Shown here one piece after another: positions 3,116 through 46,895 of a stretch of 52,018 bases of DNA. Every line of letters begins with the position of its first letter. The stretch's first letter is position 1. This DNA is from Peptococcaceae bacterium BRH_c4a (lineage in GTDB: Bacteria; Bacillota; Desulfotomaculia; Desulfotomaculales; Desulfocucumaceae). Position numbers and translations under genes: made by a program. The notes beneath the pieces are model-generated. The model did no database searches. It was not told the DNA's origin and saw nothing but the letters and a program-made list of their open reading frames with translations. The stretch is from the NCBI GenBank assembly GCA_000961585.1, contig LADN01000018.1, positions 1-52,018 of the forward strand, written 5' to 3'.

Positions 3116-3250
3116 GTATATACTCCTCCTATATAATGTTCTGCAGGAAAGAAAGCGTCAGTTTGTATTCTGCCGCAAATATATTACTTGTCATGCATTA
3201 TTTCAAGTATTCAGGCCTGACCCCCATTGTCCCCTAAAACAAAAGGTTGA

Positions 3251-3279
3251 TGGATCTAAAAAACTTGACGTGGTATAAT
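3251..3279 (+). promoter_or_regulatory. Extended -10 promoter of the toxin-antitoxin pair
   Basis: TGG precedes a perfect TATAAT (3274-3279), giving an extended -10. The -35 region (TGGATC, 17 bp upstream) is weak. The site lies about 40 bp before the antitoxin start, where an AbrB-type antitoxin would be expected to repress its own operon. Confidence 0.4.
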
Positions 3280-3320
3280 AAAAGTAAAAAAGTTACAATG
3301 TTACATTCGGGGGGATAATG

Positions 3321-3584
3321 ATGTTGCCAGTGAAAAAGAGGGTAGAACCGGATGGTAGGATTGCAATTGGAGAGATGTTAAAGATGGCTAAAATTCAACC
3401 GGGCGATTGGGTAGAGATTATTCCTGCTAACAATAAAATAACCATCAAGATGACCAAACGAATGAAACCCAAAGGAGCGGTTAAGGCTGCTGCAGGTATT
3501 TTGAAAGATCAGGATAATTTGGTGGAGGAGATGTTACGAGTTAGGGAGGACGAAGATGATCGGCCAGGAACCAGTATCCAATAG
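3321..3584 (+). CDS. AbrB/SpoVT-type antitoxin (VapB-like)
   Basis: This small protein (87 aa from this ATG) has an N-terminal swapped-hairpin AbrB fold. Its VKKRVEPDGRIAIG and QPGDWVEIIPANNKITI segments match the SpoVT/AbrB DNA-binding pattern. The acidic C-terminal tail (about 55-87) probably binds the toxin. The second of two adjacent ATGs is preferred because the GGGGGGA site ends about 6 nt upstream of it; the first ATG (3318) is too close. The 3' end overlaps the PIN-domain gene by 29 bp, typical of a coupled type II toxin-antitoxin operon. Composition is more AT-rich than the backbone, consistent with transfer. Confidence 0.85.
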   Translation: MLPVKKRVEPDGRIAIGEMLKMAKIQPGDWVEIIPANNKITIKMTKRMKPKGAVKAAAGILKDQDNLVEEMLRVREDEDDRPGTSIQ

Positions 3585-3984
3585 GTATGTAGTCGATACT
3601 AACATTGTTATCTATATCCTCCAAGGGTTAGAAGAGATAGTCAAGGCAATGGAAGAATTAGAGGATGATGATATAGAGGTTTATTATTCAACAATAGTCG
3701 AAGCAGAATTGTTTTCCTTCCATGAACTGACAAAAGAGCAAAGAGCCAAGATTAGAGGTATCTTAGATCTTGGAGAGATAATTGATGTGAATTCTGAAAT
3801 CGCTTTAAAAGCAGCCGAACTACGTGCTTTAAGTAGAAAAAACTATCAGCGGAAGCTCAAACTGCCGGATGCAATTGTTGCTGCAACAGCCTTTGTGTAT
3901 TCCGCAGCTTTGATTACACGTAATGTCGAAGACTTTAGCCATTTATGCGATCATGGTTTATGTATTCGGAACCCGTTTGAGTGA
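3556..3984 (+). CDS. PIN-domain toxin, VapC family ribonuclease
   Basis: This 142-aa protein has the full PIN-domain acidic set: Asp14 in VVDTN, Glu49/Glu51 in STIVEAEL, Asp105 in KLPDAIVAATA and Asp126 in TRNVEDF. These residues bind Mg2+/Mn2+, and VapC toxins use them to cleave tRNA or rRNA. The ATG lies inside the 3' end of the antitoxin gene, with GGGAGGA about 6 nt upstream, so translation is probably coupled. All catalytic residues are intact, so the toxin may be active. The RNA target cannot be read from the sequence. The pair sits between the DUF445 gene and an IS91 remnant. Confidence 0.9.
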   Translation: MIGQEPVSNRYVVDTNIVIYILQGLEEIVKAMEELEDDDIEVYYSTIVEAELFSFHELTKEQRAKIRGILDLGEIIDVNSEIALKAAELRALSRKNYQRKLKLPDAIVAATAFVYSAALITRNVEDFSHLCDHGLCIRNPFE

Positions 3985-4237
3985 TGACAATAAGAAGGGA
4001 CTGAGTTAGGGACGGTTTTTGATTGTCCCAGAAGAATGAAGTCGCGGCTTTCCGGGGCTATGTGCTATGGGATTTCAATCTTTTGCTATTGGCCTTTGAG
4101 ATTTGATTTTTCCTGTTTTTTTGCATGCCGTGTGCATTTTTTATAATTTTTTCATTAAGCCGGCTTGATTTGGGCATACTTCCCCCCTCCCCACTAAAGG
4201 GGCTTTAAATAAAGTATGTATTAAGTTTCAACGGTCA
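3985..4237. other. Gene-free stretch after vapC
   Basis: I see no gene here. A small hairpin (GGGAC/GTCCC, 4009-4029) has a T-rich loop and resembles the GGGACGGTT fragments at 46671 and 51095. The rest is AT-rich (for example 4118-4155) with no recognisable signal. Confidence 0.4.
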
Positions 4238-7032: not shown

Positions 7033-8727
7033 ATGGCTGAGAATAAAAATTCGAAAAAGATGCTGGGAGAACGGCTGATAGAGCTGGGTCATATTACGAA
7101 AGAGCAGCTCTGGGAGGCCATGCGGGTTCAGTCCAAAACAGGTGAAATACTGGGCAAGGTATTGATCAAGCTGGGCATGGTCAGTGACGAGGTGATTAAC
7201 GAGATACTGGGCATTCCGGTTGTTTCGGTGAGCACCGATATTGACGTGGAGCTGATCAAGTACGTCCCCGAGCAGCTTATCAGAAAATACAGGGTAATCC
7301 CTGTCAGAAGGCACGGCAACAAAATAACGGTGGCCATGAGCGACCCCAGTAATATAGTGGCCATAGACGACCTGCGGCTTATACTGGGATGCGAAATAGA
7401 GCCCATTATGGCCGGTGAAGGGGAAATAGAGGATCTAATCCAAAAATACTTCGGATTTCCCAAGATTGACAAGGCCTTTGAGGAATTTGACATGCAGGTG
7501 GGGCCGGCCGACGAGGCTGAGGCACTGACACTGGAAGAGGAGTCAGTGGTGGATGAGGCTCCCATAGTCCGACTGGTAAACTCCATTTTGGTGCAGTCAA
7601 TCGCCATGGGGGCCAGTGATATTCACATTGAGCCCCAGGAGGCGGGAGTTAAGGTTAGGTTCAGAGTGGACGGGATGCTGAGGGAAATAATGGAACTGCC
7701 CAAAAAAGTGCGCGGGGCTATGATTTCGAGAATAAAAATAATGGCTGATATGGACATAGCGGAAAAAAGAATCCCCCAGGACGGAAGAATACAGGTCAAA
7801 ACCACAGGCAAGGAAATAGATATGAGGATATCTTCCCTGCCCACAATGTATGGTGAAAAGATTGTTATGAGGCTTTTGGATAAGTCCGGCATGAAGGGAT
7901 TCAAAGTTGAACAGCTGGGGTTTAACCCAACCAATTTTAAGCGTTTTAACAACATGCTGAAGAATTCCTACGGCATTATACTGATCACCGGACCCACCGG
8001 AAGCGGTAAGACCACAACGCTTTATGCCGGGCTTAATGAGCTGAATACCATAGAAAAGAACATTATTACCGTGGAGGATCCGGTGGAGTATGTGCTGTCC
8101 GGCATAAACCAGACCATGGTTAATGTAAAAGCCGGCATGACCTTTGCGGCGGGCCTTAGATCCATTCTCCGCCAGGATCCGGACATTATTATGGTGGGTG
8201 AGATAAGGGACGGTGAAACGGCTGAAATAGCCGTCAAGGCTGCCATAACGGGACACCTGGTGCTGTCCACACTGCACACCAACGATGCTGCCAGCTCCAT
8301 TTCCAGGCTGGTGGATATGGGTATAGAGCCCTTTTTGGCGGCCTCGTCCATTCTGGGAGTGGTGGCCCAGAGACTGCTGAGAAGAGTATGCCCGGACTGC
8401 AGGGAACCCTACCTCCTTCCTTTGGGAAAAACTCCTGAAAGAGAGTTTATGGGTATGGGACCCCAGGATCAGGTAACCCTGTACCGGGGGAAGGGCTGTG
8501 ACAAGTGCTCTGGAACCGGTTATAGGGGAAGGCTTCCCATTCATGAATTGCTAATCGTCACCTCAGGGCTGAGGGCAACTATAAACCGCAATGAAAGCTC
8601 GGATATACTTAAAAGGCATGCCGTGGAAGAGGGGATGATGACACTGAAGTCTGATGGTTTGTACAAGGCTTCCCAGGGCCACACCACAATACAGGAGGTC
8701 ATGAGGGTTGCCTATACCGGTGACTGA
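7033..8727 (+). CDS. pilB: Type IV pilus assembly ATPase PilB
   Basis: PilB is the hexameric cytoplasmic motor that powers pilus extension. The N-terminal half has a T2SSE/MshEN-type domain (about 5-150). The ATPase core has Walker A GPTGSGKTTT (about 320-329), an Asp box (IITVEDPVEY), Walker B (DPDIIMVGEIRD, about 383-394) and a His box (TGHLVLSTLHTNDA). The four-Cys metal site (CPDC about 452, CDKC about 493) is intact and typical of PilB/GspE rather than PilT. The ATG at 7033 gives 564 aa; an upstream TTG at 7015 has no good ribosome site. It is the first gene of a seven-gene pil operon. Confidence 0.95.
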   Translation: MAENKNSKKMLGERLIELGHITKEQLWEAMRVQSKTGEILGKVLIKLGMVSDEVINEILGIPVVSVSTDIDVELIKYVPEQLIRKYRVIPVRRHGNKITVAMSDPSNIVAIDDLRLILGCEIEPIMAGEGEIEDLIQKYFGFPKIDKAFEEFDMQVGPADEAEALTLEEESVVDEAPIVRLVNSILVQSIAMGASDIHIEPQEAGVKVRFRVDGMLREIMELPKKVRGAMISRIKIMADMDIAEKRIPQDGRIQVKTTGKEIDMRISSLPTMYGEKIVMRLLDKSGMKGFKVEQLGFNPTNFKRFNNMLKNSYGIILITGPTGSGKTTTLYAGLNELNTIEKNIITVEDPVEYVLSGINQTMVNVKAGMTFAAGLRSILRQDPDIIMVGEIRDGETAEIAVKAAITGHLVLSTLHTNDAASSISRLVDMGIEPFLAASSILGVVAQRLLRRVCPDCREPYLLPLGKTPEREFMGMGPQDQVTLYRGKGCDKCSGTGYRGRLPIHELLIVTSGLRATINRNESSDILKRHAVEEGMMTLKSDGLYKASQGHTTIQEVMRVAYTGD

Positions 8728-8756
8728 ATGATTTTGTATTTAAGGGGGGTTATGCT

Positions 8757-40150: not shown

Positions 40151-42673
40151 ATGAATAAACCTGAGTTGCTTGCTCCCGCCGGTGGCTGGGACGCCCTGGC
40201 GGCGGCCGTGGAAAACGGGGCCGATGCCGTTTACCTGGGGGGAAAGATGTTTAACGCCAGGCAGTCGGCTGATAATTTCGATGACCGGGAGCTTTCCCGG
40301 GCGGTGGATTACGCCCACCTGCGGGGAGTAAAGATTTATGTTACGGTCAATACCCTGGTGGCCGACGTTGAAATGGAAGAGGCCCTGGAATTTTTGTTCA
40401 GCCTGCAAAATATAGGGGTTGACGCCGCCATTATCCAGGACAAGGGGCTGGCGGCCCTGACCCAAAAGGTCCTGCCCGAACTGCCCCTGCACGCCAGCAC
40501 CCAGATGACCGCGCACAATACCTCCGGAGTCAGTGAACTGATGGGGGCCGGCTTTTCCCGGGTGGTGCTGGCCAGGGAGATGAGCCTGGAGGAGATAAAA
40601 GAGATTAAAAATTCCACCGGCGCCGATCTGGAGGTTTTTATCCACGGGGCGCTGTGTATAGCTTACTCAGGCCAATGCCTTTTATCCAGCATGATTGGCG
40701 GCAGGAGCGGAAACCGGGGCCGCTGCGCCCAGCCCTGCAGGATGCAGTATGTCCTTACCGGCCGGGGCGGATCTCCGGCGGCTGATCCCGCCCTGGCCGG
40801 AGAATACCTGTTAAGTCCCAGGGATCTTAATATAAGCTCCCACATACCCGATCTGATACAGGCAGGTATAGATTCCTTCAAGATTGAGGGCCGCATGAAA
40901 AGGCCCGAGTACGTGGCAACGGTGGTGCGTATATACAGAAAGCTGATTGACCTCGCCCTTTCGGAAGACCCTTACCTGGTGGATGAAAAGGATAAAGGGG
41001 ATCTGGCCCAGATTTTTAACCGGGACTTTACCACCGGCTATTTTTTCGGCGGTCAGGGCAGAGACATGATCAGCTGCAAGCGCCCCAACAACCGGGGTGT
41101 GCGGCTGGGCAGGATTCGGGGCTTTGATAGAAAGGCCGGACTGGTGGAGGTCAGCCTGGAGAAGCCCCTGAGGATTGGCGACGGGCTGGAAGTCTGGGTT
41201 ACCGAAGGGGGAAGGGTGGGCTTTCAGGTAAGCGAGATTTTCGTTAAGGGAGTAAAGGTTGACAGCGCCCCTGCCGGCGAGGTGGCCGGGCTGAACATTC
41301 CCGGCCGGGTAAATCCCGGTGACAGGGTATTCTTAACCCACGATGCCAACCTTATGGAAATTGCCAAAGAAAGCTTTAATCTGGCCAGGGCCAGGAGGAA
41401 GGTTCCAGTTCTTTTCAAGGTACAGGCCGGGCCGGAGGCGCCCATGGAAATCACAGTAACCGACCCCGAGGGGCGTACCGCTGCGGCCTCCACCGATACC
41501 ACCGGCAGCCCGGCTGAAAAAAGGCCCCTGGACGCCGATTTTCTGAAAAGCCAGCTGGACAGGCTGGGGAATACCCCCTTTGCCATGGCCGGGCTGGAGT
41601 GTGATATAAAAGGGCAGGTCATTTACCCCCTCAGAGAAATAAATGAGGCCCGCCGTCAGGCCCTGTCCAGCCTGGAAGCCATCATATCCCGGGCCCGCCG
41701 CAGGCCTGCTGTGGATCCCTGGATATTCCGTTCCAGATTAAAACAGCTGTCAGTAGATCGCTCCCTGAAAACCGGGGGTGCCAAAGTCCCCCTGCTGGCC
41801 GTTTCGGTGGCCGATATCAAATCCCTGCATTCGGCTGTGGCTGCCGGGGCCGACATTGTATATTTCAGCCTGGAGGGGTTCCGATCAAAGCCTTCGGCAG
41901 GGCGGGACGAACTGTCCGAAGCCTCCCTTTTCTGCGGCAAAAACCGGGTGGCCCTCTTCCTGGCCACCCCCAGGATAGTCAAGGACAGGGAAATGGAAGC
42001 CCTTCTGGAGACTGTGCAAGCTATTCCGGCCTCCGGTGTGCTGGCCGGAAACCTTGGCCTGATGCCCCACCTGGCCCGGAGGGCCCCTGAACTTAAGGTG
42101 GTCACCGACTTCGGCCTAAACGCCTTTAACCGCTATACCGTGGAATACCTGCTGCAAAAGGGCGCCTCCAGGGTCACCCTTTCACCGGAGCTTACCCTGG
42201 AGCAGGTAAAAGAACTGGCCGGGCGTTACCCGGTGGAGGTATTTGTACACGGCGCCCTGGAGGTCATGGTTTCCGAACACTGCCTTCCCGGGGCTGTTCT
42301 GGGTGACCGCTCAGCCGAAACCTCCTGCAAAGCGGTGTGCCGGGAAGGGGGCTATCATCTAAAGGACAGAATAGGCGCATCTTTTCCGGTGGAAACCGAC
42401 CGGCACTGCCGCATGCATATATTCAACTCCAGGGATCTTTTCATGATCGAAGGAATCCCCGAAATCTCCGCCGCCGGGGTATCCTGCATCCGTATAGAGG
42501 CCCGCCGGGAATCCCCGGACTATGTTTCCGCGGCGGTGGGAATATACAAAAAGGCCCTGGACGGGCTGCGACGTGGCGGGAAGCCGGCTCAGGATATTGA
42601 GCAGGCCAGGGAAAGGTTGATTAGATTTAGCCCGGAGGGGGTGACGAAGGGGCACTACTACAGGGGAGTTTAG
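40151..42673 (+). CDS. U32 family protein with DUF3656 (RlhA-like)
   Basis: The protein has 840 residues. The N-terminal U32 domain has PELLAPAGGWDALAAAVENG, DAVYLGGKMFNAR, LHASTQMTAHN, VLAREMSLEEI, then the Cys cluster HGALCIAYSGQCLLSS and NRGRCAQPCR (about 165-197). A DUF3656 central part (about 390-500) is followed by a second half that repeats the U32 pattern (LLAVSVADIKSLHSAVAAGA, VTDFGLNAFNRYTVEYL, VFVHGALEVMVSEHCL). In E. coli the U32/DUF3656 protein RlhA hydroxylates a cytidine in 23S rRNA; a similar RNA-modifying role is likely here. ATG follows CAGGGAG. Confidence 0.9.
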   Translation: MNKPELLAPAGGWDALAAAVENGADAVYLGGKMFNARQSADNFDDRELSRAVDYAHLRGVKIYVTVNTLVADVEMEEALEFLFSLQNIGVDAAIIQDKGLAALTQKVLPELPLHASTQMTAHNTSGVSELMGAGFSRVVLAREMSLEEIKEIKNSTGADLEVFIHGALCIAYSGQCLLSSMIGGRSGNRGRCAQPCRMQYVLTGRGGSPAADPALAGEYLLSPRDLNISSHIPDLIQAGIDSFKIEGRMKRPEYVATVVRIYRKLIDLALSEDPYLVDEKDKGDLAQIFNRDFTTGYFFGGQGRDMISCKRPNNRGVRLGRIRGFDRKAGLVEVSLEKPLRIGDGLEVWVTEGGRVGFQVSEIFVKGVKVDSAPAGEVAGLNIPGRVNPGDRVFLTHDANLMEIAKESFNLARARRKVPVLFKVQAGPEAPMEITVTDPEGRTAAASTDTTGSPAEKRPLDADFLKSQLDRLGNTPFAMAGLECDIKGQVIYPLREINEARRQALSSLEAIISRARRRPAVDPWIFRSRLKQLSVDRSLKTGGAKVPLLAVSVADIKSLHSAVAAGADIVYFSLEGFRSKPSAGRDELSEASLFCGKNRVALFLATPRIVKDREMEALLETVQAIPASGVLAGNLGLMPHLARRAPELKVVTDFGLNAFNRYTVEYLLQKGASRVTLSPELTLEQVKELAGRYPVEVFVHGALEVMVSEHCLPGAVLGDRSAETSCKAVCREGGYHLKDRIGASFPVETDRHCRMHIFNSRDLFMIEGIPEISAAGVSCIRIEARRESPDYVSAAVGIYKKALDGLRRGGKPAQDIEQARERLIRFSPEGVTKGHYYRGV

Positions 42674-42922: not shown

Positions 42923-42952
42923 AACTTCGCATTATATGGATAATGGGAAGTT
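42923..42952. repeat. Cassette boundary motif, site 1
   Basis: AACTTCGCATTAT, a 4-bp spacer ATGG, then ATAATGGGAAGTT: 13-bp arms inverted with 12 of 13 matches. Related motifs occur at 44324-44353, 45268-45312 and 46193-46221, one on each side of each of three AT-rich genes. Confidence 0.8.
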
Positions 42953-43049
42953 TAGAACTTAATAAATAAACTACTCCGGTATAACTGCAATACCCTAAAG
43001 TCACCAGAATATGAATAGGTATGAATATCCAAGGTAGATCTTGGTTGTC

Positions 43050-43118
43050 GCCTAACGTTCCGCATATTCCCGATGCGTCTCAACCATCTCTGCTACGTGT
43101 TGGGAACAGCTGTTATTC
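43050..43118 (-). other. attC-like sequence after the DUF3825 gene
   Basis: On the minus strand the stop codon is followed by GAATAAC, a folded middle (GTTCC/GGAAC and GCAT/ATGC pairs) and GTTAGGC, which fits the integron core GTTRRRY. The left core only partly fits RYYYAAC. It could be a degenerate attC site or chance. Confidence 0.3.
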
Positions 43119-43132
43119 GCAGTAGCCACCTT

Positions 43133-44245
43133 CTATGGATTTAACCAGAAATTATCGGGCTTCGCTAATATCCTTGCATTTTGATAGGCCATATCAATAG
43201 TTAATATAGTTGTACCTCGATAACAGGTTTCGTGCTTCTCCAAAACTAAAGCTACATCAGGTCTGCCCGAAAACTCCCCAGAAAAATATATAGGCATGAG
43301 AAATTGAATGCTTTTGGACTTTTTCCAATACTGAGGAACAATTAGCTTATAGTTTCTTTCTGCTAATATTCCAGCGATTTCTGCAGCCTTCGGAAGTAAC
43401 ATTATTAATTGAGCTTTAGTTAATACACCAACTTTATCTTTAATTCTTGAGTAATTGTCCTCAATTATGTGTTTATAGTATAGTTCAGTATCAAGATTGG
43501 GGTCATATACCAATTCAAAGATGTTAGTAAAAAACTTAGCCATTTTGGGCTTTTCGCTAAAGCTACGATAAAAAATACTTTGACTTGACAGACATAATTT
43601 CGCATTAGTCAATCGAGGACCTTTTATGGTTAATCTTGAGCTGATATCGCATACAACGTATACTTCTTCAAAATATGTGTTTATTAACCCTGTGTTAAAA
43701 ACCACCTTATTGCTTTTCTCTATTATTTTCTTTTCGGAAACTAATTTGAAATAAATGTTCTCAAGATAGGATTTCAAAATAGGATGTCTAATTTTACTTG
43801 GATAATAATCATAATCCCATTTCTCATCGATAGCTAACTCAGCTACTTCATCAATAAACCTTAGTCCAGAATCCCAGCTGTCAAAGCAAATATCTCCAAT
43901 AATGAAACTATCCTGTTCAAGTTCAATTAAGTCTTTTCTTTCAAACCATATACCAGCCCATTTCTGCCTACCAGGGTTTCTGTTAAGGGTAAATTTAGCC
44001 CAAATTTCTTCACCAAGATTCATTAGACCAGTGTTAAAAAAGCATAATTCAGCATCTTTGTCACTGAGGAGTATATCCCCATTCTTTTTGCAATAAACCA
44101 AGTAACCACTAACATAAGCCTGTCTGAAAACATCAGAAATCTTTTGTTCCAAGGCGTCTGTTGTATATTGGTCCCGCATCAAGGAACACAAGGTCTGGTA
44201 TGCATCGGTTCGATTAATAACATAAGCGAAATCCTGAATTTCCAA
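43133..44245 (-). CDS. DUF3825 domain protein
   Basis: The protein has 370 residues. The C-terminal two thirds match DUF3825: IRHPILKSYLENIYFKL, KVVFNTGLINTYFEEVYVV, HIIEDNYSRIKDK, PQYWKKSKSIQFLMPIYF, DVALVLEKHETCYRGTTIL and LTIDMAYQNARILAKPDNFW. The N-terminal part repeats the FNTGL pattern (AELCFFNTGLMNLGEEIWAK, about 67-86), suggesting an internal duplication of one half. No enzyme is established for this domain; homologues often occur with nuclease or defence genes. It is much more AT-rich than the backbone and lies on the opposite strand, consistent with transfer. Recombination-like motifs flank it. Confidence 0.8.
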   Translation of the reverse strand: MEIQDFAYVINRTDAYQTLCSLMRDQYTTDALEQKISDVFRQAYVSGYLVYCKKNGDILLSDKDAELCFFNTGLMNLGEEIWAKFTLNRNPGRQKWAGIWFERKDLIELEQDSFIIGDICFDSWDSGLRFIDEVAELAIDEKWDYDYYPSKIRHPILKSYLENIYFKLVSEKKIIEKSNKVVFNTGLINTYFEEVYVVCDISSRLTIKGPRLTNAKLCLSSQSIFYRSFSEKPKMAKFFTNIFELVYDPNLDTELYYKHIIEDNYSRIKDKVGVLTKAQLIMLLPKAAEIAGILAERNYKLIVPQYWKKSKSIQFLMPIYFSGEFSGRPDVALVLEKHETCYRGTTILTIDMAYQNARILAKPDNFWLNP

Positions 44246-44323
44246 ACTATTTCCCTCCCTTTTCTCAATCCAACAGAAGCATTATATAATTTAGTCACTA
44301 TACCTTCTAGACTTGATAGGCAT

Positions 44324-44353
44324 TTTGTCAGTTTTATGGATAATGCGAAGCTT
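44324..44353. repeat. Cassette boundary motif, site 2
   Basis: TTGTCAGTTTTATGG is followed by ATAATGCGAAGCTT. The right arm matches sites 1 and 3; the left arm (ACTTGATAGGCAT, upstream) is weak. It lies between the FRG stop and the DUF3825 start. Confidence 0.6.
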
Positions 44354-44393
44354 ATTTATAGCTACTTGTTTTTCTATTTCTTTTAAAATAATA

Positions 44394-45185
44394 CTAGTTT
44401 TTAAACCTTTCTTTTAACTCTTTTGCTAATCCCTCTAAATCTGGATAAACAGTAGAATATGTAATTCCTAAACTCATCAGTTCAATTTTAATATTATATG
44501 CTTCACTATTTGGAATAACATACTTTACAAAGTATCCGTTTTCAACAATTTCATGATTACAAAAAATGCTTTCAAAATCTCTTTTATCAGTACCATGAAT
44601 TGTAAAACAGCTCTTTTGTGCAAACATTCTTGAATGGCAATAAGATGCTGGTACAGCTACTGGTAGAGTGCTTTCGGTAACACCTTTCTCACATACAGGG
44701 TGATTTGTTCTGAAAGCTGCATGAAAATTGAGACAACCACTATTATTCAAAGTCCATGTATTTGGCAAAACTCTTTCTTTAATAGAATAGAAATTTAATT
44801 CTAGGGGATGTAACATCCATATCGCTCTATCACAGCTTTTATCTGTATTAACTGTAAAAAACAAAGCAATTAATGAACTTTCTGTCCAATCTAAGAGACG
44901 AGTTGGCAACCCATTATGTTGCATTAAAAACAACCATTTATCAACTTCACTCCTATTTGGGGTGTCTGCTATTGTTGAAGATCTTTCTCTGAATGTACGT
45001 GTTAAATTAAACTCATCATACACCCCATCATGTTTCCTATACACGGAAGGTAATGGGGGTAAACTCGAGTCTGACTGTCCTCTAAACCATGGAGATCCAT
45101 AGTTATCATCATACTGCCAATCTCTTGTATCGTTTGCTATAAAACTAATGTACTCATTAATTGATTTTATCGTTTTGAAGTTCAA
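44394..45185 (-). CDS. FRG domain protein
   Basis: The protein has 263 residues. The FRG domain (about 20-125) is clear: SPWFRGQSDSSLPPLPSVYR, with the name-giving Phe-Arg-Gly, then WLFLMQHNGLPTRLLDWTES and ALFFTVNTDKSCDRAIWML. FRG proteins are of unknown biochemistry but are often found in defence islands and mobile elements. The start is TTG at 45185: AAAGGAG lies 7 nt upstream on that strand. The open frame runs 28 codons further without a ribosome site and has a basic, non-conserved sequence. AT-rich, like its neighbours. Confidence 0.82.
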   Translation of the reverse strand: MNFKTIKSINEYISFIANDTRDWQYDDNYGSPWFRGQSDSSLPPLPSVYRKHDGVYDEFNLTRTFRERSSTIADTPNRSEVDKWLFLMQHNGLPTRLLDWTESSLIALFFTVNTDKSCDRAIWMLHPLELNFYSIKERVLPNTWTLNNSGCLNFHAAFRTNHPVCEKGVTESTLPVAVPASYCHSRMFAQKSCFTIHGTDKRDFESIFCNHEIVENGYFVKYVIPNSEAYNIKIELMSLGITYSTVYPDLEGLAKELKERFKN

Positions 45186-45267
45186 TTTATTTCTCCTTTC
45201 AACTTTAAATTTTATCTTATTAAAATAAGCATCACTGTATCTAACACACCTACTAAGCAGAACTCTC

Positions 45268-45312
45268 AACTTCCTATTATCTTGTCCGTTTATGGATAAT
45301 GGAAAGTTCAGA
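45268..45312. repeat. Cassette boundary motif, site 3
   Basis: AACTTCCTATTAT, a 15-bp spacer ending TTTATGG, then ATAATGGAAAGTT: arms match at 11 of 13. The segment TTATGGATAATGGAAAGTTC matches site 1 closely, and CTTGTCCGTTTATGG matches the site 2 spacer. Confidence 0.75.
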
Positions 45313-45362
45313 AATTAACTAGATAAAGAAACATTTTTAAAAAATCGTGACAGACTTGAAAA

Positions 45363-45405
45363 GTTGGGTCAAAGCGCAGCGGAGCCGATTAGCCTGTTGT
45401 TAGGT
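45363..45405 (-). other. Half attC-like sequence after the unknown helical gene
   Basis: On the minus strand ACCTAAC (fits the integron core RYYYAAC) is followed by AACAGGCTAATCGGC and CTCCGCTGCGC, the look of a left attC half. The matching right half and GTTRRRY core are missing; ACCCAAC stands there instead. The resemblance is suggestive only. Confidence 0.3.
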
Positions 45406-45425
45406 GTTTTTCGTTCTGCCCGAGG

Positions 45426-46100
45426 TTAACTTGAATTCGATTTTGTTAGATGATGTTCTGTTTTTTGAATGGTATCAAAAAGTGCTCTGCACGCACTGAT
45501 TTGTAAATTGATTTCTTTTCGGTATGCACCTACCTTGTCGGGGTCAAACCCACTACCAATAATAAGTGTCCCTGGTTCAGAAAACTTATTAGAATTCGCA
45601 AGTGCCAATGCAGAAGCATGACTATACTTATCAAAAAAGGAAGTAATCTCTCTAAACTGTTCCCACCCTCCATGGTCAATTTCTAAGAGGCGTTTTTTCT
45701 TTTGATCTATGGCCAAAGCCTTTTGTACCGGGAACTTGTCGGGATTATTCAAAAATCTATCGAAAACATCTATTTTGTCATGACAACATAGCAATGCCAT
45801 GGCAATTGACTCACCATATTGTCTCATGAGGTTTCCCGCTGGTAAAAAGAGTCCGGACATTGAAAGGCGGAGGGAATTAAGCAAGTTATTAAAAGCATTG
45901 AAAAGGTAAGCATGTACCCAGGCTGATCTAACGTTTGAAGGAACTCGTTGGGTCATTTGTTCAAGCCGCTCATAGGCCTGATACAATGCAGTCGAAAATG
46001 TATCAATTTCCTTCCGGAATAAGTCCACAAAATGGCTACGTGTTTCTTCATCATCATATAATATAAGTTGCTTTAAGTCCTCTTGTTTAAACCCTTTCAT
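45426..46100 (-). CDS. Hypothetical alpha-helical protein, 224 aa
   Basis: I do not recognise a named family. The sequence is predicted helical throughout, with amphipathic stretches (VRSAWVHAYLFNAFNNLLNS, GLFLPAGNLMRQYGESIAMA) and two Cys (LLCCHDK, about 113). No signal peptide is seen. The pattern NLLRxxxE-like in a helical bundle resembles proteins near abortive-infection genes, but this is impression only. ATG follows GAAGGGGC. It is AT-rich, on the minus strand, and third in the cassette-like block after FRG and DUF3825. An attC-like half site follows its stop and motif site 3 lies beyond. Confidence 0.7.
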   Translation of the reverse strand: MKGFKQEDLKQLILYDDEETRSHFVDLFRKEIDTFSTALYQAYERLEQMTQRVPSNVRSAWVHAYLFNAFNNLLNSLRLSMSGLFLPAGNLMRQYGESIAMALLCCHDKIDVFDRFLNNPDKFPVQKALAIDQKKKRLLEIDHGGWEQFREITSFFDKYSHASALALANSNKFSEPGTLIIGSGFDPDKVGAYRKEINLQISACRALFDTIQKTEHHLTKSNSS

Positions 46101-46192
46101 TTTTTCAGCCCCTTCAGACTTATTGATACGGCCCGACGCTGAAGTAAACCTTTAATTCCATATCACTAAGACATTGATTACTATTACTTCTA

Positions 46193-46221
46193 AACTTCTC
46201 ATAATAGACATTATTTACGTT
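46193..46221. repeat. Cassette boundary motif, site 4 (degenerate)
   Basis: AACTTCTCATAAT, a short spacer AGAC, then ATTATTTACGTT. The left arm matches site 1 at 11 of 13; the right arm is weak. It lies about 90 bp before the start of the 224-aa gene, closing the block. Confidence 0.45.
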
Positions 46222-46362
46222 ATAGACAGGGGACAGTTCTCACTATGCATACTATGATGGCTATTGTTGAGCCAGTAATTCTCCATACTTTGTCACGGAG
46301 TTGTTTATATGAAAATATAAAGGCGAATATTACTCCAAGGGGTATTTTCCGCAAATCCATCT

Positions 46363-46546
46363 AGTCATTTTCGGAATTAATAAAGCTATGGTTTATTAAG
46401 GCTATAATCAATCTGTCTCCCACCGCATGAAGTGCACCACAAAGACATATCTGTTATGCCGAAATAGCTGTCAGCAATCAGCCATCAGCTCTCAGCCGTG
46501 ATTGCCACAAGGTATAGAAAACACAGAGTAAAGAATACTCTATTTT
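46363..46546 (+). repeat. Direct duplication, unit 1
   Basis: Roughly 180 bp recurs at 46714-46895 with about 85-90% identity by eye. Shared landmarks are AGTCATTTTCGGAATTAAT, ACAAAGACATATCTG and TTATGCCGAAATAGC, then a 7-bp-period AGCTGTC/AGCAATC/AGCCATC array and GATTGCCACAAGG. Unit 1 is preceded at 46225 by GACAGGGGACAGTT, also seen before unit 2. Confidence 0.88.
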
Positions 46547-46598: not shown

Positions 46599-46713
46599 CC
46601 GAGATGATAAATTACTAATTCTTCGCTTTATTGACAAAACCTTCTTCTGAATACATAATTTTTTTGTTCGACAGGGGACGGTTTGTGCTGTCGCGTGCCA
46701 TGATGGCTATTAC

Positions 46714-46895
46714 AGTCATTTCCGGAATTAATATAGCGATGGTTTATTAAGACCATAGTCAAATCTGCCTCCAACCGCAAGAAGCACGCCACAAAGACAT
46801 ATCTGTTATGCCGAAATAGCTGTCAGCAATCTGCCATCAGCTCTCAGCTGAGATTGCCACAAGGTGTAGAGAACGCAGAGTAAAGACTCTATTTT
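46714..46895 (+). repeat. Direct duplication, unit 2
   Basis: Second copy of the unit at 46363-46546. Upstream of the shared block, unit 2 has lost about 120 bp between GATGGCTATT and AGTCATT relative to unit 1. It ends about 90 bp before the FAD oxidoreductase gene. The whole stretch 46101-46986 holds no gene I can support. Confidence 0.88.

Follow-up and report, generated by a model that had tools for sequence, protein, structure and literature searches.

Three adjacent genes in a 52,018-bp stretch of DNA from Peptococcaceae bacterium BRH_c4a (contig G000:C7; the whole stretch is called the window below) are best understood as cassettes of an integron-like gene-capture platform in Bacillota, which would be served by a dedicated recombinase of the Xer family, here named int-A. 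The window itself would carry an orphan array, with cassettes but no int-A. From the comparative sequence evidence set out below we give this interpretation a probability of roughly 0.78. The sites in question span 42.9-46.2 kb, and the best reading of the layout is an attI-like end followed by the gene for a 224-aa protein, site 3, an FRG-domain gene, site 2, a DUF3825 gene and site 1. An earlier reading of the window alone (the original prediction) had proposed site-specific capture of single genes, and comparison with other genomes now supports this.

Sites in the window and in other genomes

The window contains four copies or half-copies of the motif AACTTCnCATTAT between 42.9 and 46.2 kb. 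Site sequences are quoted on the minus strand, which is the coding strand of the cassette genes. Site 1 (42923..42952), the distal end of the array behind the DUF3825 cassette, shows an 11-6-11 dif-like core, AACTTCCCATTA-TCCATA-TAATGCGAAGTT. In full it is AACTTCCCATTATCCATATAATGCGAAGTT and its core reads ACTTCCCATTA-TCCATA-TAATGCGAAGT, with a right arm directly beside the hexamer that matches at 11/11 positions. It has two complete 13-bp arms separated by a 4-bp gap, and R1, a covariance model of the site family whose training alignment did not include this site, recovered it with E = 8e-8 in 631 kb. Site 3 (45268..45308) is composed of AACTTTCCATTATCCATA-AACGGACAAGA-TAATAGGAAGTT, in full AACTTTCCATTATCCATAAACGGACAAGATAATAGGAAGTT, and also has two complete 13-bp arms, here with a 15-bp gap; it scored E = 5e-9 in 631 kb with R1, being itself part of the training alignment. 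Site 2 (44281..44352; AGCTTCGCATTATCCATAAAACTGACAA) has a strong left arm with one mismatch, AGCTTCGCATTATCCATA at 44352-44335. Its inverted partner, ATAATGC, is weak and lies about 45 bp away (near 44281-44290) instead of 15 bp, and R1 returned only E = 0.5. Site 4 (46193..46215), at the proximal end of the array, consists of a right half only, AATAATGTCTATTATGAGAAGTT (that is AATAATGTCTA-TTATGAGAAG-TT), with no left arm. Hence all four positions named in the original prediction do carry the motif, but only sites 1 and 3 are complete, and site 4, which had been taken for an ordinary flanking site, looks like an attI-type array end.

By frequency in the window alone the 13-mer is not rare. With up to two mismatches it matched 8 times, against 4.4 ± 2.0 in shuffled sequences, and 8 of 100 shuffles gave as many. 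We counted it as non-random because 6 of the 8 matches fall inside 3.3 kb and conservation of a longer form, RRCTTYCCATTATCCATAWA, extends across Clostridia. The genome of the window has such a cluster of sites at this locus only, and an Rfam scan of the array region gave nothing above chance.

A search for RRCTTYCCATTATCCATAWA in one genome per species, covering 84,980 species (GTDB), led to 45 contigs, the bulk of them from Clostridia and their relatives; some matches were coincidental ones in coding sequence and were disregarded. In 113 genomes of the window's order a related 20-mer, with one mismatch allowed, occurred at nine places, against none for the reversed control, and the motif had no match in viral contigs. 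Runs of sites on the same strand were present among 14 genomes examined further. Of all the genomes compared, some are metagenome-assembled. Desulforamulus aquiferis (L132/L087) has a run of five sites with genes that stop 15-42 bp before the site, Clostridium brassicae (L130/L131) has a run of six, and co-oriented sites also surround single genes in C. magnum (L092) and at loci L134, L178 and L199.

Nearly all strong model sites (41 of 42) are intergenic, which speaks against a motif scattered at random positions. The exception is window site 1, which lies inside an 86-aa open reading frame (ORF) that is probably spurious. ORFs were called throughout by a simple longest-ORF rule. The ORF upstream of a strong site is co-oriented with it in 40 of 41 cases and the downstream ORF in 37 of 40, compared with 72% for neighbouring genes in the same loci. 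From the stop codon of the upstream ORF to the site the median distance is 85 nt. The arrays are therefore made of single-gene cassettes with a downstream site, all in one orientation, as in integrons.

The core of the family consists of a left arm ACTTCCCATTA, the hexamer TCCATA and an inverted right arm TAATGSGAAGT. Because the conserved left arm was used to recruit the sites, its conservation is partly built in. The variable spacer that had been noticed in the window is real, but it is the distance between the arms that varies throughout the family, with right-arm offsets from the hexamer peaking at 0, 15 and 35-36 bp. A plain dif core does not explain why many sites have a second, well-kept right arm 15 or 35-36 bp past the hexamer; the displaced arm could reflect folding or a binding site for an accessory factor. 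The palindrome is 80% paired, compared with 32-50% when it is slid.

The recombinase int-A and its association with the sites

The original prediction suggested looking for a tyrosine or serine recombinase with copies of the motif on either side of its gene, and in relatives a tyrosine recombinase of this kind is indeed present. In the record of Lutibacter sp. B2 (L065/L134) the ORF next to a site encodes a 311-aa tyrosine recombinase. This protein and its close relatives (about 69-92% identity), found within a few kb of sites in eleven genomes other than that of the window, are our int-A. The gene is antiparallel to the cassettes at L134, L176, L177, L178, L180, L186, L187 and L188. It is intact in six genomes and interrupted by one stop each in L180 and L188; broken copies lie near sites in L130, L182 and L189, and L181 has another broken copy with no site detected nearby. 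Past the 3' end of int-A most of these loci have an ordinary cassette site. About 8 of 12 loci carry, next to the 5' end of the gene, a right half-site that lacks a left arm, e.g. ATTGTCTA-TATAATGGGAAG (L177) and AATGTCTA-ATAATGTGAA (L189), and we read these half-sites as putative attI-like elements. Site 4 of the window, in the form AATGTCTA-TTATGAGAAG, resembles those of L177 and L189. As to a possible counterpart of Pc, the promoter that drives integron cassettes, a TTGACA sequence facing the cassettes is present in 7 of 12 regions upstream of int-A, with no consistent -10 element.

Int-A has all catalytic residues of the family (R-K-H-R-H-Y) and aligns with Xer proteins over its full, Xer-like length, which makes it a member of the Xer family. 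It is below the NCBIfam equivalog cut-offs for XerC (205 bits, cut-off 335) and XerD (183, cut-off 330) and below that for the integron integrase TIGR02249 (91, cut-off 265). Its closest structures in the PDB are XerA (5hxy) and XerD (1a0p), with IntI4 far behind, and in an alignment with R388 IntI1 and Escherichia coli XerC/XerD the long insertion that IntI1 has before the HxLRH motif is missing. In a phylogenetic tree int-A formed a clade (support 100/99) which grouped with clostridial Xer proteins (99/97), while IntI1 was placed on a long branch elsewhere. Most Clostridia contain a recombinase with 43-53% identity to int-A, as a rule one per genome, and the six included in the tree formed a separate clade; we take these proteins for the housekeeping Xer. 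Among 72,556 plasmids no int-A was found at 60% identity or more, only recombinases below 60%, and viral contigs contained no relative of int-A.

Int-A and the sites also occur together across genomes. In 291 evenly drawn Clostridia genomes (int-A at 69% identity or more, site model at E ≤ 0.01) int-A was present in 4 and sites in 8, including all 4 int-A genomes (Fisher p = 2.4e-7; 8.7e-6 without the centre genome). The distance from int-A to the nearest model site was about 1-1.2 kb in three sampled genomes that were not known beforehand. In the window's order (113 genomes) int-A was found in 4 genomes, with sites in 3 of them by the model and in all 4 by the pattern.

Some further recombinase genes deserve mention. 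L186 (G176:C52) contains two int-A genes in one array (3220-4155 and 7820-8755), 4.6 kb apart and both with intact ORFs. A segment of L134 (11756-11952) is 86% identical to the 3' flank of int-A in L177 and yet lies apart from the int-A gene of that locus, an arrangement that recombination between two int modules might have produced. Recombinases beside sites in L198 and L216 were set aside as belonging to an IS91-type element and a recombinase trio, respectively. At L216 (G113:C62, 10466-13053; Desulforamulus aquiferis) three tyrosine recombinase genes follow one another on the minus strand beside cassette sites and probably represent a recombinase-trio element.

Probable traces of recombination and competing explanations

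Pairwise comparison of loci revealed breaks in homology at the sites. L178 (G026) and L196 (G028), which represent two species within a genus, show 97% identity for 2,353 bp as far as a site, beyond which they are unrelated. The int module is 92-93% identical in L177, L178 and L189, with unrelated genes on both sides, and a one-gene segment is 92% identical between L201, from the window's genus, and L178, from another family. Pairs of sites have in common either their upstream tails only or their downstream heads only. The left arm stays with the upstream gene. The stretch after TCCATA goes with the downstream cassette in those pairs that most clearly have only heads in common, an odd right-arm variant, AACAAGAAG, accompanies the downstream cassette in Clostridium loci, and in one tail family the right-arm classes switch behind the tail. 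In other pairs some similarity runs on with the tail, which we attribute to common right-arm classes, and the numbers are mixed. The crossover is probably located in or beside TCCATA. From the int modules it had first been placed at GAAG/TT, a position we withdrew since the site-by-site comparison, though mixed, leans to TCCATA.

The geometry of the sites, for example of window site 1, fits an Xer core. For comparison, dif of Bacillus subtilis is ACTTCCTAGAATATATATTATGTAAACT (PMC3025954), and two hosts of int-A have one dif-like site each, ACTTCCGATAATAGATATTATGTAAACT. Of the 11 positions of the cassette left arm ACTTCCCATTA, 9 agree with the host dif arm ACTTCCGATAA.

Sites, arrays, gene orientation, the association with int-A and the homology breaks can all be read from the genomes, and a mechanism may be proposed from them in which int-A is the catalyst of excision and insertion and site 4 corresponds to attI. 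Int-A (about 311 aa, its clade being sister to that of the clostridial housekeeping Xer) would recognise the core formed by left arm, TCCATA and inverted right arm, the latter either adjoining the hexamer or displaced by 15 or 35-36 bp. Two co-oriented sites would recombine and release one gene as a circle, which could then enter an array at another place or the attI-like half-site next to int-A. In this way arrays would grow as gene-site-gene-site, with the cassettes in one direction and int-A in the opposite one. The array of the window, in which int-A is missing, would be the counterpart of the clusters of attC sites lacking integrases (CALINs) known among integrons.

Several observations weigh against this interpretation. 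No int-A was found in the window's genome. When the already known genomes were removed from the window's order, the co-occurrence of int-A and sites was not significant (p = 0.17). Many sites have no recognisable right arm. Covariation in the palindrome was not above that of shuffled sequences, so that a folded site has no independent support. The 45 nt past the hexamer go with the upstream cassette in some pairs and with the downstream cassette in others, leaving the break point ambiguous. No pair of strains was found in which the window's own cassettes are present in one and absent from the other. Finally, the window locus is rearranged, as shown by all six relatives read: in them the U32 peptidase gene, which flanks the array in the window, is followed by a mutS2-like gene without such cassettes, and the window (40151-42673 and downstream) differs. 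There is thus no clean empty site for comparison, and the array seems to have come in, or together with, a rearrangement.

It might be argued that the housekeeping Xer recombines the sites in trans, in the manner of dif modules, and that int-A is a mere passenger. This is unlikely, even though the core is dif-like with its 9/11 match to the host dif arm, many arrays are in genomes without int-A, and a related Xer is present in most sampled Clostridia. Int-A is closely tied to the arrays and has sites on its own flanks, and the right arm is the inverted left arm and not the dif arm TTATGTAAACT. The dif (pdif) modules of Acinetobacter resemble the present arrays in that genes are flanked by 11-6-11 Xer-type sites and mobility depends on the Xer family, presumably so in our case. 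However, those modules have 28-bp XerC-6-XerD sites at both ends, C and D in alternating orientation (PMC13141974), whereas here the sites are co-oriented, both arms are of one type, the distance between the arms varies and the array comes with a gene for a dedicated recombinase. Like XerC/XerD and the single-recombinase systems XerA, XerH and XerS, int-A has the full length of an Xer protein and the complete set of catalytic residues. In contrast to these systems, which serve one dif per chromosome, int-A is accessory and is accompanied by many sites and gene cassettes.

An unrecognised branch of true IntI/attC integrons or CALINs, with a folded attC and a crossover at GAAG/TT at the 3' end of the palindrome, is quite improbable too. 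The similarity in layout is extensive: co-oriented single-gene arrays in which each gene is followed by a site, an antiparallel recombinase gene, often next to a non-palindromic half-site that may be the counterpart of attI, orphan arrays in which the recombinase is missing, and cassettes rich in defence and unknown functions. The arms can be arranged as R''-spacer-L'' ... L'-spacer-R' with a variable central segment, and 10 of 23 sites have GTT at the right end. Yet the inverse core RYYYAAC or the core GTTRRRY that define attC (PMC3053210) were found in full in 0 of 23 sites, with partial agreement only; the sites have instead a dif-like core with the hexamer TCCATA. The recombinase belongs to the XerC/D branch, scores 91 bits where IntI requires 265, and lacks the insertion that bears the I2 helix, to which recombination of attC is attributed (PMC7790495, PMC3053210) and which is thought to be necessary for IntI to act on folded sites, no intermediates being known (PMC7790495). 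Furthermore, the variant AACAAGAAG goes with the downstream cassette, while the palindrome of attC belongs to the upstream one, and an ordinary cassette site usually lies on int-A's own 3' side, unlike in integrons. The hosts also differ, being Bacillota here. Firmicutes are considered to have hardly any integrons, and IntegronFinder 2.0 detected one complete integron there (Limnochorda pilosa) and a few CALINs (PMC9024848).

That the motif is only a regulatory element of defence genes (promoter, operator or terminator) is very improbable. Sites do precede co-oriented genes and a TATAAT-like sequence is frequent after the hexamer, but the upstream gene is co-oriented too, in 40 of 41 cases, no gene follows the distal site of the window, and neither the association with a recombinase nor the homology breaks at the sites would be explained. 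Transposon ends, i.e. miniature inverted-repeat elements or terminal repeats of insertion sequences (IS), are suggested by the palindromic ends and the dispersed copies of the motif, and IS elements or recombinase trios are nearby in places, but this idea is hardly tenable: the loci have no transposase in common and the sites stand singly between different genes in one orientation, with an ordinary gene as the unit between them.

Cassette genes and significance of the arrays

The three cassette genes of the window are all on the minus strand and have a G+C content of 35%, compared with 50% for the window, as the original prediction had stated when it called them AT-rich. It had also reported no recombinase in the window, and a search of the window for remnants of int-A was likewise negative. 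The distal cassette encodes a 370-aa DUF3825 protein (43133..44245; Pfam PF12873, 203 bits). The middle one encodes a 263-aa FRG-domain protein (44394..45185; Pfam PF08867; PADLOC PDC-S15, 159 bits), a length that assumes a TTG start at 45185 behind AAGGAG, as judged from the sequence; the longest ORF reaches 45269 and would overlap site 3. The 224-aa protein (45426..46100) had no family match above cut-off. Many cassettes of other arrays carry defence-type genes. Among the products encoded are GmrSD-type restriction enzymes, OLD/AriA-like ATPases, a Cap4 nuclease, a Pycsar/CBASS-type TIR effector, HEPN proteins, acetyltransferases, a glyoxalase and a peptide deformylase. FRG proteins accounted for 3 of 72 scanned, including that of the window.

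Other repeated or site-like sequences were seen in and near the arrays. Behind the DUF3825 gene (43050-43078, GCCTAACGTTCCGCATATTCCCGATGCG) and behind the 224-aa gene (45360-45408, CAAAGCGCAGCGGAGCC...GTTGTTAGGTG) there are sequences that look like halves of ordinary integron attC sites; they match RYYYAAC/GTTRRRY in full and do not resemble the array loci used for comparison. Beside the proximal end of the array an intergenic repeat is present in two similar copies (GACAGGGGACAG... at 46230-46500 and GCCGAAATAGCTGTCAGCAATC... at 46670-46890). In L201 (G001:C33, 15729-17203) a 444-bp direct duplication (95%) surrounds an acetyltransferase gene and contains a sequence resembling a cassette site.

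By the features tested, the system is integron-like in layout and Xer/dif-like in enzyme and core, and is neither an integron nor a dif module. We found no earlier description of such a system in the open-access literature, a scope that excludes most subscription papers and all bioRxiv preprints. It is an evenly balanced question whether cassette arrays arose here a second time, independently of integrons, from a duplicated XerC-type recombinase of Bacillota without the I2 helix, which captures single genes at dif-derived sites and maintains chromosomal arrays of defence genes. If this is true, cassette capture could be built directly from the dif/Xer system by a relative of Xer that lacks I2, and the origin of integrons would become testable through a living comparison. 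The sites would, in addition, provide a sequence handle for finding unknown defence-gene clusters in Clostridia.

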